Source: Pseudomonas sp. HS6 | GTDB taxonomy: Bacteria > Pseudomonadota > Gammaproteobacteria > Pseudomonadales > Pseudomonadaceae | Assembly: GCF_023375815.1 (NCBI RefSeq) | Contig: NZ_CP067412.1 | Coordinates: forward strand, 3,348,001-3,412,000 | Direction of reading: 5' to 3' | Length of the DNA: 64,000 nt | Position numbers and translations under genes: made by a program | Shown here: positions 53,136-59,096 of the stretch, in pieces | How the letters are laid out: every line of letters begins with the position of its first letter | How positions within the stretch are numbered: position 1 is the first letter of the stretch | The notes under the pieces: model-generated | The model's input: the letters and a program-made list of their open reading frames with translations, nothing else | Told to the model about the DNA's origin: nothing | The model's database searches: none

Positions 53136-53237
53136 TAAGCTACGCTGTGTTTCCGGCAAGGGCCCTTGGTCCTTGCCGGACTGTTCCGACGCTGCGCATC
53201 GTTATATTCTGGCATCAACCTACGAAGGGATTTCGCC

Positions 53238-56012
53238 GTGCGCTGGCTCAGGATTGCCATAGGCTTCACCGTCACACTGTTGACCTTGCTCTGCATGCTC
53301 CCGGCCCAGGCCGCGCAAGGCAGTGGCTGGTCGGTATTGCTCGACGATCAGGGCAACCTCCAGCTGAGCGACATCCGCTCCGCCCGCTACACCAATCAAT
53401 TCAGCCCTATCGAGCTTGACCGCCTCACCGCGGCCGAACCCGATGGCGCGTTATGGCTGCGCTTCAGACTGGCGCCCGGCAAGCACGAACAAGTGCTGCG
53501 CATCTTCGCTCCCGACCTGTCCCACCTCAATCTGTACGTGCTCGATGGCGACAGGCTGATCGAGCAACGGGAAACCGGCACCGTCCAGGCCCAGGCCGAG
53601 CGCCCACTGCCGAGCAGCGATTTTCTGCTGCCATTACCGCAAAGCGACAAGTCCCTCGACGTTTACCTGCGCCTGGTCTCCGACCATCAGTTGCGTCCAT
53701 ACATCACCCTGCAATCGGCGGTGATGGGCGCGGCCAACCATAATCAGACGCTGATCTACGGCTTGCTGTTCGGCTGCCTCGCCATGCTGATCCTGCACAA
53801 CCTGATCCGCTACGCCTACACCCGCTCGCGCAGCAGCCTGTGGCTGGCGGTGTGTGAAGCGTTGCTGAGCCTGAGCCTGTTGCTGTTGCTCAACCTCGCC
53901 GGTCCTTGGCTGCCGAACTGGCACGCGATCCAGACCCCCGGCGCCTATCTGGCACTGCTGCTGACCGCACCGGCCGGCCTGATGTTCGCCTACCGCTTCT
54001 TCGCCCCGCTCAGCCCGCATCCGCTGAACAAACTGCTGCTGGGCGACATCCTGTTCATCGTGATCTGCAGCCTGCTGCTGTTGTTCGTCAACACCCTGCC
54101 GCTGAACATCATCACCTACGCACTGGTGGCCCTGGCCGGGCTGAGCATGTTGCTGGTAGCGTTCTATCACTGGCAGAAAGGCTACCGCCCTGCCCGTCTG
54201 TTCGTCGCCGCCATGGTGGTGTTCAACATCGGCACGCTGATCATCCTTCCGGCCCTGCTGGGGCTGACCCTGGTGGCGCCGCAAGGCCTGATCATGACCC
54301 TGATGGGCTTCATCTGTATCAGTGGCCTGCTGATGAGCATCGCCCTGGGCGAGCGCCAGCGCAGCATCACCGAAAGCCGTTTCAGCATCAGCCGCGACCT
54401 CGCCGCAAGCAACGCGGAAATCAATGCCAAGGCCGAATTCCTCGCCAAGATCAGCCACGAAATCCGCACGCCGATGAATGGCGTACTAGGCATGACCGAA
54501 CTGCTGCTCGGCACGCCGTTGTCGGTCAAGCAGCGCGACTACGTGCAGACCATCCACAGCGCCGGCAACGAACTGCTGACCCTGATCAACGAGATCCTCG
54601 ACATCTCCCGCCTCGAATCCGGGCAGATCGAACTGGACGACGTGCAATTCGATCTCAACGCCCTGATCGACGATTGCCTGAGCATCTACCGCGCCAAGGC
54701 CGAACAGCAGAACGTCGAGCTGATCAGCTTCATCCAGCCGCAAGTGCCACGGGTCATCAGCGGCGATCCGACCCGTCTGCGCCAGACGCTGCTAAGCCTG
54801 CTGGAAAACGCCCTGAAGAAAACCGAAGAAGGCGAAGTGCTGGTGGTGGTCGCCCTCGATGAACGCAGCGCCAAGCCACGCCTGCGCATCGCCGTGCAAG
54901 ACAGCGGCCAGCCGATGGACCAGGAAGAGCGTGATGCGTTGATGCACGCCGAGTTGCACAGCAAGCACTTCCTGTCGGCCAACCGCTTGGGCGGCAATCT
55001 CGGGCTGGTGATCGCACGGCAACTGATTCGCCTGATGCAGGGTGAGTTCGGCATCAAGAGCGGCGCCACCCAGGGCAGCACGCTGTGGCTGACCCTGCCG
55101 CTGGACCCAGACCGCCTGGAGCACCCGACCTCCGATCTCGACAGTCCGCTGCAAGGCGCGCGGGTGCTGGTGGTCGACGACAACGACACCTGTCGCAAAG
55201 TACTGGTGCAACAGTGCAGCGCCTGGGGCCTGAACGTCAGCGCCGTGCCGTCGGGCAAGGAGGCGCTGGCCCTGCTGCGCACCAAAGCGCACCTGCGTGA
55301 CTATTTCGACGTGGTCCTGCTGGACCAGAACATGCCCGGCATGACCGGCATGCAACTGGCGGCCAAGATCAAGGAAGACCCGAGCCTGAACCACGACATT
55401 CTGCTGATCATGCTCACCGGCATCAGCAACGCGCCGAGCAAGATCATCGCGCGCAACTCGGGGATCAAACGCATCCTGGCCAAACCGGTGGCCGGCTACA
55501 CGCTCAAGACCACACTGGCCGACGAGCTGAACCAGCGCAACCGTGGCCAGGCGGTGTTCCAGCCACAAGCCGTTGGCCCGGCCACGGCAGTCAAAGTCCC
55601 GAGCGATTTCCGCATTCTGGTCGCCGAAGACAACACGATTTCCACCAAAGTGATTCGCGGCATGCTCGGCAAGCTCAACCTGCAACCGGACACCGCGAGC
55701 AATGGCGAAGAAGCCTTGCAGGCCATGAAGGCCCAGCGCTACGACCTGGTGCTGATGGACTGCGAAATGCCGATCCTCGATGGTTTCTCCGCCACCCAGC
55801 AACTGCGGGCCTGGGAAGTCGGCAATCAGCGCATCCGTACGCCGATCGTCGCACTGACCGCGCACATTCTCGCCGAACACAAGGAGCGTGCGCGCCAGGC
55901 CGGCATGGACGGGCACATGGCCAAACCGGTGGAGTTATCGCAGTTACGCGAGTTGATCGAACACTGGGTGGCCCAGCGCGACCAGCAAAACCGAACGGCT
56001 TCCACCTTCTGA
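53238..56012 (+). CDS. retS: Hybrid sensor kinase RetS
   Basis: A 924-residue hybrid. The GTG at 53238 has GAAGGGA 7 bases upstream and yields a signal peptide ending MLPAQA. A periplasmic 7TMR-DISMED2 domain (about 40-180) is followed by seven helices (about 190-390), a kinase core with His about 407 (KISHEIRTPMNG), and two receivers with Asp about 696 (VVLLDQNMPG) and about 841 (LVLMDCEMPI). The ATP-lid motifs are weak: DSGQPMD in place of DxGxG. The family represses GacS and so biofilm and type VI genes. Its place after purD matches P. aeruginosa RetS. Confidence 0.92.
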   Translation: MRWLRIAIGFTVTLLTLLCMLPAQAAQGSGWSVLLDDQGNLQLSDIRSARYTNQFSPIELDRLTAAEPDGALWLRFRLAPGKHEQVLRIFAPDLSHLNLYVLDGDRLIEQRETGTVQAQAERPLPSSDFLLPLPQSDKSLDVYLRLVSDHQLRPYITLQSAVMGAANHNQTLIYGLLFGCLAMLILHNLIRYAYTRSRSSLWLAVCEALLSLSLLLLLNLAGPWLPNWHAIQTPGAYLALLLTAPAGLMFAYRFFAPLSPHPLNKLLLGDILFIVICSLLLLFVNTLPLNIITYALVALAGLSMLLVAFYHWQKGYRPARLFVAAMVVFNIGTLIILPALLGLTLVAPQGLIMTLMGFICISGLLMSIALGERQRSITESRFSISRDLAASNAEINAKAEFLAKISHEIRTPMNGVLGMTELLLGTPLSVKQRDYVQTIHSAGNELLTLINEILDISRLESGQIELDDVQFDLNALIDDCLSIYRAKAEQQNVELISFIQPQVPRVISGDPTRLRQTLLSLLENALKKTEEGEVLVVVALDERSAKPRLRIAVQDSGQPMDQEERDALMHAELHSKHFLSANRLGGNLGLVIARQLIRLMQGEFGIKSGATQGSTLWLTLPLDPDRLEHPTSDLDSPLQGARVLVVDDNDTCRKVLVQQCSAWGLNVSAVPSGKEALALLRTKAHLRDYFDVVLLDQNMPGMTGMQLAAKIKEDPSLNHDILLIMLTGISNAPSKIIARNSGIKRILAKPVAGYTLKTTLADELNQRNRGQAVFQPQAVGPATAVKVPSDFRILVAEDNTISTKVIRGMLGKLNLQPDTASNGEEALQAMKAQRYDLVLMDCEMPILDGFSATQQLRAWEVGNQRIRTPIVALTAHILAEHKERARQAGMDGHMAKPVELSQLRELIEHWVAQRDQQNRTASTF

Positions 56013-56034
56013 GTGATGCCGTGCGGTCATCCTT

Positions 56035-56676
56035 TCAAATTTCAAGTTCTCTCAGGTATTTGCTCGACTGTGACAGTACCGCTTTCTTCACCTTCTCCCG
56101 AAATGTCGCGTAGTGAAGCGTATTGAAGGTGATCGCAGTCAGTTGCTCGATACTCTCGCGCTCAAGCGATTCATTTTTGAGAAACAGGAACCGCGAGATC
56201 TCTCGCTGAATCGAAAACCTGCGATGGTAGACCCCGAGTTCAACCTTGTGCGCGCCGTTCATGACACACGGAATCATCTGAAAACAGCCGACATCGGCCT
56301 CAAGGCTAGTGGACTCAAACACTTCCATCGCCAATAAGTTTCGCTCCAGCTCGGCCATGGCCCGCCTCATGGGCAAGTAGAACTCCTCACCGAGGGAAGC
56401 CTTTATACGCTGCAGGGCCTTGCTGCCCATCGGGGCGACAGGCTCGGGGGAAAACGTTTGAGGTCGTGGCACGTCCCAGCCCAGATGTTTCAGTTTATTG
56501 CAGTAATAGTCGAACCAATCGCCCGATAGTCCATCGGCCATCGCCGCTCGGGTGCTCTGTTGCGCAAAAGCCGTGCTCATGTAAATGTCTTCCCGATGGG
56601 AAGCCGGCAGGCCAGCTGCAAACGACACAACGCTGGCACCGACCACTGCGGATGCAGGTGCAAATACGTCAGTCAT
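56035..56676 (-). CDS. Unknown protein C of a three-gene paralogous cluster
   Basis: A 213-residue protein I do not recognise. The ATG at 56676 has GAGAGG 7 bases upstream. The N-terminus holds a mildly hydrophobic stretch (ASAVVGASVVSFAAGLPAS). GDWFDYYCNKLKHLGWDVP aligns with KEWYMIFREVMTNMGWAPV in the first gene of the cluster and with TLWYDVYSDIIDGFWFRY in the second. ELERNLLAME matches VYERNLLEQG of the first. The last ~60 residues are predicted beta-hairpin plus a basic helix (FREKVKKAVLSQSSKYLREL). It overlaps the upstream gene by 8 bases, so translation is coupled. No signal peptide or lipobox is evident. Confidence 0.7.
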   Translation of the reverse strand: MTDVFAPASAVVGASVVSFAAGLPASHREDIYMSTAFAQQSTRAAMADGLSGDWFDYYCNKLKHLGWDVPRPQTFSPEPVAPMGSKALQRIKASLGEEFYLPMRRAMAELERNLLAMEVFESTSLEADVGCFQMIPCVMNGAHKVELGVYHRRFSIQREISRFLFLKNESLERESIEQLTAITFNTLHYATFREKVKKAVLSQSSKYLRELEI

Positions 56677-57400
56677 TGCCGAGCCTCTCTGGAAGTACAG
56701 CGCAGCAAGACGGGTCGCCCTTCTCCAGCACAGCAACATTGTCTTTGATTCTGCTTTTGATCTTCAGGGCAAGTTCGTGACGCACCGGGACATACTGGGA
56801 TTCCACCAGATTCGCGCGGAAAGCCCGCAAAGTAACAGCGCCTTTCACGTCCTCGGCACGATAACGCTGGAACAGAGGGCTGGGGCCCAGTGCCTGATCG
56901 GTTTTAAGTTCGAAGTACACACTCCGGAACGAAGTGGGTGACTGCGCCACAATCACCATCATGTGCACGTCCTCTGCAGGTGCCGGCACTGGCATCACTA
57001 CATGCTCGGATACTTTCTGCACATGGGTACGCAACATTTTGATGGCGGGAGTCGTATCCGAGATCTTCTCCAATCGAGCCATTACTTCGGCGATTGCTTG
57101 CCCTTCGTCAGCATTCACTTTGGACATCGCAGCCACTACCCAGTCCACTGCGCAAACATCACTGTCTGGAGCAAGAGTCCTGTCCTCTCGCGATTTTTCA
57201 TACCGAAACCAAAAACCATCGATAATGTCGCTATAGACGTCATACCAGAGAGTATCCGGTTCTTTTTCCGTCTGCTTATTCGCCACCAACTGCGCGTACA
57301 ACACGGTGTTGATCACATCATCGTAAATGGTCACATCGTCTGTTTCAGGCACGATCAGGACTGCCGCCCCAACCATCAATACTGTATATAAATCTTGCAC
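56669..57400 (-). CDS. Unknown protein B of a three-gene paralogous cluster
   Basis: A 243-residue protein I do not recognise. The start is a GTG at 57400 with AGAGG 7 bases upstream. Near residue 33, VLYAQLVANKQ is nearly identical to FLYASLVANKQ of the first gene, and it is followed at similar spacing by LWYDVYSDII...FWFRYEKS against EWYMIFREVM...GWAPVTRYYS. A beta-rich C-terminal part (VHMMVIVAQSPTSFRSVYFEL) ends with VRHELALKIKSRI and a short Cys-containing tail (PSCCAVLPERLGND). A hairpin lies 24 bases upstream of its start. Confidence 0.7.
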   Translation of the reverse strand: MQDLYTVLMVGAAVLIVPETDDVTIYDDVINTVLYAQLVANKQTEKEPDTLWYDVYSDIIDGFWFRYEKSREDRTLAPDSDVCAVDWVVAAMSKVNADEGQAIAEVMARLEKISDTTPAIKMLRTHVQKVSEHVVMPVPAPAEDVHMMVIVAQSPTSFRSVYFELKTDQALGPSPLFQRYRAEDVKGAVTLRAFRANLVESQYVPVRHELALKIKSRIKDNVAVLEKGDPSCCAVLPERLGND

Positions 57401-57423
57401 ATCAACACCTCTCTTTTTTGAAT

Positions 57424-57450
57424 AAGGGCAATCGATGCACGATTACCCTT
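57424..57450 (-). other. Intercistronic hairpin in the unknown cluster
   Basis: On the minus strand AAGGGTAATCG and CGATTGCCCTT pair over 11 bp (one G-U pair) with a 5-base loop, between genes A and B. An A-run rather than a T-run follows, so it is probably not a terminator. It could protect or separate the upstream message. Confidence 0.6.
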
Positions 57451-57460
57451 ACTTACTTAA

Positions 57461-58249
57461 TTAGATGTCGTAATCAATCTTCTTGAGAGCGTGCGCCACA
57501 AGTTTGCCCGAGACAAACGCACGAGTGGCTTCAGCAAGAGCATCATTTTTCTCAAACACTGTTTCACCGCTATACAGATCCACATTACGAACATCAACAT
57601 CGACAAACATTACTTTGGTCGATGTATTTCGACGTTTGAAACGCACTGCTCCGATAGCAAAAATAGTTACACCGTTTACTTCTGTGCACGCCCCTGCGGT
57701 GACTCCGCCTACGCCTTGTTCCAACAGGTTTCGCTCATAAACCGTCAGTGCGGTTTCACGTTGTTTCAGAGCGGCGATGGCGTCACCCGCCACTTTCAGC
57801 ATCAATGCAGAAGTCGGGCCTGGCAACGCAACCCCGGCAACGACCGAGCCCAGGATTTGCAGAACCAGTTGGTCCATACGGACACTGGTCCCGCCTACTT
57901 TAAGATCGCTGTAGTATCGGGTGACAGGCGCCCAACCCATATTGGTCATGACTTCGCGGAATATCATGTACCACTCTTTGCCCTGGTGTTCCGCCGGATA
58001 CTGTTTATTTGCCACTAACGATGCATAGAGAAAAGCATTCTGTGCATCTGCGCGGTTAACACCCGAGAGATTACCGCTAAAACTAAGCACACCCTCGCCT
58101 ACAATCGAACCCTTGCTCGGCGTTTCAACATCGTCACCCAGGGAGAACATCCTGCGAGGCGCAACAGCCAACGGCTCGCCCAAATCATACTCTTTCAAAT
58201 TTTTGATGCAGGAATCGATATAAGCCTGGCTAGTAGTATATTTACTCAT
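57461..58249 (-). CDS. Unknown protein A of a three-gene paralogous cluster
   Basis: A 262-residue protein I do not recognise, first gene of the cluster; AAGGA stands 8 bases before the ATG. No signal peptide is seen (MSKYTTSQAYIDSCIKNLKE). FLYASLVANKQ (about 73-83) and EWYMIFREVMTNMGW (about 91-105) are shared with gene B and, more weakly, gene C. A Gly-rich hydrophobic segment follows (ILGSVVAGVALPGPTSALML, about 132-151), then VYERNLLEQGVGG, and a beta-strand region ending in VMFVDVDVRNVDLYSGETVF and a helix LVAHALKKI. It is preceded by a long G-poor (plus strand) leader. Function unknown. Confidence 0.72.
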   Translation of the reverse strand: MSKYTTSQAYIDSCIKNLKEYDLGEPLAVAPRRMFSLGDDVETPSKGSIVGEGVLSFSGNLSGVNRADAQNAFLYASLVANKQYPAEHQGKEWYMIFREVMTNMGWAPVTRYYSDLKVGGTSVRMDQLVLQILGSVVAGVALPGPTSALMLKVAGDAIAALKQRETALTVYERNLLEQGVGGVTAGACTEVNGVTIFAIGAVRFKRRNTSTKVMFVDVDVRNVDLYSGETVFEKNDALAEATRAFVSGKLVAHALKKIDYDI

Positions 58250-58502
58250 GACACTGTCCTTACGTTAATTTAAACAAGTCCCTCATGAACTTGCCGAAAG
58301 AACAATACCCAACCCCATCAACTCCAACAAACCAAAACATGTAACACCATATCCACAAACAACCGACAACAACACTTAGATGCGCACAACCAAGCACCTC
58401 CACAAAGGAAACTAACAAGTAAATAATTCAAGCGCGCCACCCACAGGTAATTGATCGACTGATAGACTTTGTTTCACCTCAATCCGAATGCGAGCCAAAA
58501 CC
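58250..58502. other. AT-rich, G-poor leader/promoter region of the unknown cluster and marC-like gene
   Basis: The gap between divergent gene A and the MarC-like gene is clearly more AT-rich than the rest of the window. From about 58301 to 58380 the plus strand has only three Gs in 80 bases, so a minus-strand leader would be almost free of C. The marC-like promoter must lie at the right end, but no clear site was found. Confidence 0.55.
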
Positions 58503-59096
58503 ATGCTCCACGTGTTGTTCAGCGTTTACCTGAAGATGCTGGTGCTCTACAGCCCGTTCTTCGTGTTGTCCTGCTTCATCAGCCTCACGCGTGGCTACTC
58601 ACGCAAGGAGCAGCGCCGCCTGGCCTGGAAAGTGGCCATCGCCACGCTTGTCTCCAGTGTCCTGCTGTATTTGTTCGGGCGGGTGATTTTCGATGTGTTC
58701 GGGATCACTGTGGATGCCTTCCGCATCGGTGCTGGCAGCGTACTGTTCATCTCGGCACTGGGGATGGCGCAGGGCAAGTCGGCGGTACAGACAGACAATG
58801 TGCAGCAGGATGTGACCATCGTACCGCTGACCATTCCGTTGACCGTCGGTCCCGGCACTATCGGTGCGCTATTGGTGATGGGCGTCAGCCAGCCGCACTG
58901 GGATGACAAGCTGATCGCGATCATGAGTATCGCCCTGGCCAGTTTTACCGTCGGTGTGGTGCTGTATCTGTCAAATCGAATCGAGCGGATTCTTGGCGAT
59001 CAGGGATTGCAGATCGTCAGTCGGCTCATGGGATTGTTCGTTTGTGCACTGGCGGCACAGATCATCTTTACTGGGGTGAAAGGTTATCTTGGCTGA
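58503..59096 (+). CDS. MarC-family inner-membrane protein
   Basis: A 197-residue polytopic protein with about six helices, the same length as E. coli YhgN. IVPLTIPLTVGPGTIGALLV is the MarC/NAAT signature, and the C-terminal RLMGLFVCALAAQIIFTGVKG is typical. The ATG at 58503 begins at the first helix; another ATG at 58488 is in frame, and neither has a strong ribosome binding site. The family's transport role is uncertain. A terminator follows. Confidence 0.87.
   Translation: MLHVLFSVYLKMLVLYSPFFVLSCFISLTRGYSRKEQRRLAWKVAIATLVSSVLLYLFGRVIFDVFGITVDAFRIGAGSVLFISALGMAQGKSAVQTDNVQQDVTIVPLTIPLTVGPGTIGALLVMGVSQPHWDDKLIAIMSIALASFTVGVVLYLSNRIERILGDQGLQIVSRLMGLFVCALAAQIIFTGVKGYLG

Follow-up and report, generated by a model that had tools for sequence, protein, structure and literature searches.

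Volvatoxin, Evf and the bacterial Cyt toxins form three clades of cytolysin-fold proteins that were joined only recently, by structural alignment (Loth and colleagues, PMC5390079). The N-terminal propeptide of Bacillus thuringiensis Cyt1Aa, which is removed by proteolysis, has been linked to self-inhibition, and the protoxin monomer is reported to be still able to form membrane oligomers (PMC7052140). Volvatoxin A1 (VVA1) of Volvariella volvacea is reported to inhibit volvatoxin A2 (VVA2) through direct interaction (PMC9230820), and Evf of Pectobacterium/Erwinia is described as acting in Drosophila (PMC7315124). Dickeya dadantii keeps four cyt genes, cytABCD, as a cluster, and three of their products are reported to be toxic to the pea aphid (PMC5390079). 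Proteolysis is also reported to activate the gasdermin of CARD-NLR systems (PMC13236601). Here we describe three adjacent genes, A, B and C, beside retS in Pseudomonas sp. HS6, within a stretch of 64,000 nucleotides (contig NZ_CP067412.1, positions 3,348,001 to 3,412,000; hereafter the window, to which coordinates refer). We propose, at a probability of about one half, that A, B and C may be three subunits of a membrane-acting system descended from a single cytolysin-fold protein.

All three genes lie on the minus strand. Gene A (57461..58249; 262 residues) is followed by gene B (56669..57400; 243 residues, GTG start), placed in the set by its open reading frame (ORF) and by profile homology to A and C, and by gene C (56035..56676; 213 residues). 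The longest ORF of C starts at 56739; the start used in the alignment with relatives, 56676, leaves C overlapping the end of B by 8 nt. An initial annotation of this DNA had noted three adjacent, leftward, paralogue-like genes. These ORFs and the motifs quoted for them were confirmed, namely LYASLVANKQ in A, LYAQLVANKQ in B, DWFDYYCNKLKHLGW in C and ERNLL in both A and C. Pairwise BLASTP aligned A with B at E 6e-5, A with C at E 1e-6 (41 of 180 aligned positions identical) and B with C at E 0.004. Profile-profile comparison gave probabilities of 99.9% for A-C (E 1.9e-34, 211 columns), 99.4% for A-B (E 1.3e-21, 215 columns) and 99.0% for C-B (E 4.5e-18, 210 columns). By both methods, the sequence similarity among the three exceeds chance. 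Iterated hidden Markov model (HMM) searches of the ORFs of the window and 40 wider loci, the latter first fetched from matches of the C protein, all converged on one set of 98 ORFs, whether seeded with A, B or C.

The same proteins matched no family in Pfam, NCBIfam, PADLOC or PDB sequences, and PADLOC profiles returned 0 families at E up to 1 for seven family proteins. Weak matches to the integron-cassette protein VCH_CASS14 (E 0.12 and 0.02; 1 of 45 members) were treated as chance. An origin as phage cargo was likewise set aside: A had no match in a phage collection, and neither the A5 alignment nor P0134 had a relative in viral contigs. Ratios of nonsynonymous to synonymous substitution (dN/dS) against three relatives were 0.17-0.20 for A, 0.26-0.36 for B and 0.13-0.21 for C, compared with 0.05-0.08 for RetS, 0.05 for PurD and 0.02-0.03 for TspR, with synonymous sites near saturation in several comparisons. 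These values indicate purifying selection on all three genes. B is the fastest evolving of the three and carries neither the N-terminal extension nor the conserved cysteine.

Common ancestry was examined in 21 loci (20 plus the window) with three tandem family genes on one strand and gaps below 400 nt. In an IQ-TREE phylogeny of the 63 proteins (225 trimmed columns), the genes of each position formed one clade holding 21/21 members, with ultrafast bootstrap values of 97 for position 1, which had no intruder, 100 for position 2 and 94 for position 3. Triplication therefore predates the split of these genomes, and the A-B-C order is fixed. The suggestion that the set was built from one ancestral protein is well supported by these position-specific clades, whose profiles match over most of their length, and the phylogeny and profiles together show that A, B and C share common ancestry. 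Genes 2 and 3 abut or overlap in most triads (gap -74 to +14 nt in 20/21), the large negative values arising partly from the start choice of the mechanical caller. The fixed order, the junctions that are short or overlap, and the co-inheritance seen in these sequences would all be consistent with a three-component system. A broader FastTree tree including pairs, singles and other phyla kept position 2 together, and the position-1 genes did not form one clade. The three genes do not always co-occur: other loci, in Pseudomonas and elsewhere, carry a single family gene or two of them, either A+B or A+C, the latter where no ORF for B was found.

We then compared predicted structures. The AlphaFold2 model of C (32-row alignment) is confident, with a predicted local distance difference test score (pLDDT) of 89.7 and a predicted template modelling score (pTM) of 0.87; that of A (45-row alignment) reached pLDDT 72.2 and pTM 0.74. 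Both models contain the beta-rich part and terminal helix that had been anticipated. A begins with a helix (residues 8-20) and a low-confidence linker (28-44) ahead of the core, and C consists of the core only. Cys188 of A is conserved in at least 90% of the 45 aligned rows, as are Pro136 and Cys137 of C in at least 90% of 32. A Foldseek search of the PDB with the A model returned seven chains at E up to 0.001, five of Cyt1Aa and two of Evf. VIA scores for the A model were 8.7 (Cyt1Aa), 8.1 (Cyt2Ba), 7.9 (1cby), 7.7-7.2 (VVA2) and 6.6 (Evf), then 4.0; those for the C model were 9.9-9.2 (VVA2), 9.2 (Cyt1Aa), 8.7 (Cyt2Ba), 8.3 (1cby) and 6.4 (Evf), then 3.9. Dickeya CytC, at 3.5 and 3.3, fell below the gap. 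The models thus match one and the same known fold, and A and C are predicted to have the Cyt/volvatoxin/Evf cytolysin alpha/beta fold. A modelling coincidence, with the family in truth adopting another fold, is very improbable, since two models from separate alignments returned the same top ten entries, all of cytolysin fold and clearly separated from the next, and since the C model is confident. The view that no family comes to mind accordingly holds for sequence and fails for predicted structure.

Known cytolysins are remote in sequence. Among Pfam matches at E up to 10, the Cyt family was absent for A, B and C, and likewise for 45 members of A1 and 26 of A5, and PDB profile searches with A1, A2, A4 and A5 returned no Cyt, volvatoxin or Evf chain. 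Compared with Cyt1Aa and Cyt2Ba of B. thuringiensis, sequence similarity is undetectable (7-11% identity in structural alignments, no profile match), and three paralogues stand in place of one protein. Volvatoxin A differs in being fungal and in that VVA1, at 44.8 kDa, is roughly double VVA2 in size, against 262, 243 and 213 residues here; for Evf, too, no sequence similarity to the family was found. A likeness in gene organization is that to D. dadantii cytABCD, with several cytolysin-fold paralogues in one cluster (PMC5390079); such a tandem arrangement was seen in all 21 triads, in three position-specific clades, the fold here being predicted for A and C. On the evidence of the models, the family would be a further cytolysin-fold clade beside volvatoxin, Evf and Cyt. 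Neither gasdermin nor another pore-former family was among the structural matches listed for A and C, an absence from a list that does not exclude them. Tripartite alpha-helical pore-forming toxins of the ClyA type have an all-helical, elongated fold; the A and C models are instead alpha/beta with long strands. Unrelated folds, or homologues standing apart, would have counted against the initial annotation, and here the outcome is mixed: the folds of A and C are not unrelated, whereas homologues also occur as pairs and singles.

The Cyt1Aa propeptide, volvatoxin and the CARD-NLR systems suggest, by analogy, how the set might work. A at least is probably made without a recognisable signal peptide, none having been seen for it. 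A would be the membrane-active subunit, its N-terminal helix and flexible linker helping to hold it inactive much as the Cyt1Aa propeptide may do. A stretch of this kind precedes the core in A and in single-gene relatives (A5 consensus 'FIxxLELxxP'), and the window's B and C lack it. B and C, its paralogues, would act as partners, either restraining A or joining it in an assembly, in the way that volvatoxin A1 restrains volvatoxin A2. On a trigger, the set would disrupt a membrane, most likely as a gasdermin-like lytic effector inside the producing cell, in defence or programmed lysis. Gating would be by the partners in Pseudomonas, and probably by a neighbouring or fused peptidase in single-gene relatives elsewhere.

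Neighbourhoods of relatives outside Pseudomonas were inspected at nine loci, those that could be reached. Four of the nine combine a single family gene or domain with a trypsin-, caspase- or CHAT-type peptidase. In genome G686 (locus L086, 8808-12194, minus strand), one 1128-residue chain comprises a GDSL lipase, a caspase C14 domain, a peptidase M15 domain and the family domain at 906-1127; its C14 domain is the only C14 match in that genome. A papain-like reading of a 738-residue neighbour in L086 was dropped, the motif having been seen by eye only, with no Pfam match. In genome G232 the family gene adjoins a Trypsin_2 gene, one of five Trypsin_2 matches there; in its relative G356 the contig breaks off there. 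As judged by eye, the usual catalytic motifs are retained in the G686 C14 domain and in the G232 trypsin domain. On Sinorhizobium fredii pSfreNXT3a GDSL-Amidase_3-M15 and Trypsin_2 genes come after the family gene, with a like arrangement annotated in S. meliloti RCAM1115, and on Rhizobium leguminosarum pRL31b3 the family gene lies among CHAT/TPR-S, GH108 and TIR-nSTAND1-WD40 genes.

Four other loci are pairs with no such peptidase seen: the common Sinorhizobium pair, a Buttiauxella metagenome-assembled genome (MAG), a Curtobacterium plasmid and Qingshengfaniella. In the Curtobacterium and Qingshengfaniella pairs, the match of the second gene to the family HMM is weak (E 3e-7 and 4e-4). In the broader tree, second genes of the non-Pseudomonas pairs group with Pseudomonas B (22 members, support 0.77), with the exceptions that the first gene of Qingshengfaniella also falls in this group and that the second genes of carnitine-type Pseudomonas pairs fall outside it. 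The ninth locus, in Vibrio parahaemolyticus, is a single gene; a gene for a metallophosphoesterase lies about 1.2 kb further along. A pattern of peptidases beside single genes, and of none beside pairs or triads, is suggestive at a sample of nine loci but not established.

The likeness to bacterial gasdermins and CARD-NLR systems is one of working, a predicted membrane effector beside or fused to such a peptidase at these four loci; the difference is that the best structural matches of A and C are cytolysins. Single genes without a peptidase occur in Pseudomonas and Vibrio, and no activating peptidase adjoins the window triad, whose flanks are a RetS-type kinase, a MarC gene and then a cobalamin gene. 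By eye, the genes that recur next to the 40 Pseudomonas loci likewise included none recognisable as being of caspase, CHAT or trypsin type; a dipeptidase-like gene recurs at a second Pseudomonas site. A more specific account, which we put forward tentatively and hold to be distinctly less probable than a three-subunit membrane-acting system, is that the family is a fourth, apparently undescribed cytolysin-fold lineage in several phyla that serves as an intracellular, gasdermin-analogous lysis effector. Its singles would be gated by caspase-, CHAT- or trypsin-type peptidases and its pairs and triads by paralogues (B, then C), with the triad long established next to retS in Pseudomonas.

The family is common in Pseudomonas and rare outside it. 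The C protein matched in 54 of 149 Pseudomonas genomes and the A profile, which also catches B- and C-type members, in 97 of 149, the window's genome being counted in both. Matches were found in 2 of 320 other genomes of the class, and of 398 genomes of the phylum the C profile matched one outside Pseudomonas; within the G686 class there was a match in 1 of 385 genomes (G686 itself), and within the taxonomic family of G686 in 2 of 100. Protein databases add Streptomyces, Phycisphaeraceae, Blastocatellales, Microcoleus, Clavibacter, Sphingomonas, Klebsiella and others (120 of 266 matches listed in one search), and where named these relatives are hypothetical or uncharacterised. The titles and abstract beginnings of the literature matches listed revealed no publication on the family. 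A plasmid search with one relative gave 65 records, 60 of them Sinorhizobium. Two of the Sinorhizobium plasmids (L094, pHRC017, and L095) carry a family gene pair with a response-regulator gene upstream, and the pair's first gene recurs on many. Four longer relatives (P0205, P0206, P0293 and P0300; 364-387 residues) have extra N-terminal parts without a Pfam match, of about 110 residues in P0205 and P0206, which come from a Phycisphaeraceae MAG and a metagenome. The long ORFs L053 (419 residues) and L054 (501 residues) have no Pfam domain and appear by eye to be upstream in-frame extensions before a better start.

On the C side, the set is flanked by a RetS-type hybrid sensor kinase gene (53166..56012, plus strand; Pfam 7TMR-DISM, HisKA, HATPase_c and receivers), and on the other side by a MarC-family gene (58488..59096, plus strand; Pfam MarC, E 1.1e-40), as the initial annotation had it; we regard both as context and not as members of the set. 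The latter probably corresponds to P. aeruginosa tspR (PA4857), a MarC-like gene directly downstream of retS that is reported to be a negative regulator of RsmY and RsmZ (PMC4729953). A RetS-type kinase gene lies beside family genes in 31 of the 40 wider loci, and purD in 31. This points to a long-standing site, so that of the proposed insertion between retS and the MarC gene the position stands and a recent arrival does not. GC content over the cluster is about 47-56%, compared with 57-65% around it (700-base steps); a recent mobile island between retS and marC was rejected as a full account because 31/40 loci keep retS, and the low GC remains. In 18 of 24 loci with marC called, marC lies between the 3' end of the family genes and retS, with a cobJ-like cobalamin gene on the other side. 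In the window and in five loci (L032-L035 and L069), retS and marC instead flank the set; L062 is arranged otherwise. Separation of retS from the tspR counterpart by the set (53166-59096), in the window and five close relatives, is a local rearrangement. Identity to the window in L032-L035 is 46-69% for A, 30-53% for B and 46-69% for C, and 88-95% for RetS, 96-97% for PurD and 95-98% for TspR. Two further recurrent Pseudomonas sites (L111-L119; L110, L120 and L122) hold tandem family genes, mostly pairs, L118 having two separate singles; their neighbours, named by eye, are dipeptidase/carnitine-type genes at one and a LysR-type gene at the other.

A hairpin precedes gene A (58275..58293, minus strand), with a 7-bp stem and a 5-nt loop, 13 nt before a Shine-Dalgarno-like AAGGA at 58257-58261. 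Leaders of 16 relatives were extracted, and 13 (window and 12 relatives) were aligned after exclusion of four more divergent ones (G020, G125, G093 and G055). In this alignment 96.6% of cells are paired and 5 of 7 pairs are changed on both sides; the covariation score is 0.473, compared with 0.301 in shuffles, and shuffles matched the hairpin in 0/500 cases on four of five measures and 3/500 on the fifth. The best slid version reached 59.8% paired and a score of 0.262, a comparison that favours the hairpin because its stem was drawn by eye from the same sequences. Its covariance model had a single match in the window's genome at E up to 10. Rfam gave no match at E up to 1 in 55900-58600, and scans for sites resembling promoters and terminators yielded counts close to the mean of the shuffles; no site from them was used. 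Control by RsmA/RsmE was considered because of RetS; we do not claim it, the loop GGA being present by eye in just 3 of 13 leaders.

Several other functions were weighed. Many Pseudomonas live in association with plants or insects, and a multi-part toxin, exported or released by lysis, that targets insects, amoebae or other eukaryotes in the manner of Cyt, Evf and D. dadantii cytABCD, is the strongest competitor, though we think it unlikely. The predicted fold is that of Cyt and Evf, D. dadantii offers a precedent for a toxic cluster, and fast divergence suits a host-facing protein. Yet A shows no signal peptide, members also occur in Streptomyces, in Phycisphaeraceae and on Sinorhizobium plasmids, and some relatives adjoin caspase, CHAT or TIR genes, neighbours that point to an intracellular role. 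Somewhat less probable again is an arrangement of toxin-antitoxin-like or immunity type, where the sole task of one paralogue, B being the likeliest, would be to neutralise the other or others. Inhibition of VVA2 by VVA1 (PMC9230820) would be a model for it, B is the fastest evolving of the three, and B-type partners recur in pairs from two phyla; however, Pseudomonas also has A+C loci where no ORF for B was found, as well as lone A-type genes, and carriage of A or C thus does not seem to require B.

We find it improbable that the proteins keep the fold and act without lysis, as lipid- or fatty-acid-binding regulators or scaffolds perhaps tied to RetS/TspR (MarC) membrane signalling. Evf is reported to bind palmitate covalently through a cysteine and a lipid cavity has been proposed for Cyt proteins (PMC5390079), which the conserved Cys188 of A and Cys137 of C would suit; retS adjoins the genes in 31/40 loci, and the leader hairpin is reported at this operon only. 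Neither B nor the A5 group, however, conserves the cysteine, and the link to retS is not general, because family genes also occupy the dipeptidase/carnitine-type and LysR sites. Moreover, the family diverges fast while RetS, PurD and TspR remain 88-98% identical in the same five genomes.

Taken together, these results support the interpretation first placed on the locus and extend it with a predicted fold, evidence of its age, a distribution across genomes and a mode of action that is plausible for a three-subunit membrane-acting system. Known examples of the cytolysin fold are few and comprise insecticidal, fungal and plant-pathogen proteins; the present prediction extends it to a conserved set of several paralogues, some relatives of which, elsewhere, adjoin peptidases of the types that set off programmed death in bacteria. 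Were the proposal true, it would add another fold to the protease-gated bacterial membrane effectors and explain a common hypothetical locus beside a much-studied regulator. A, B and C may represent an unrecognised kind of bacterial membrane-attack system.
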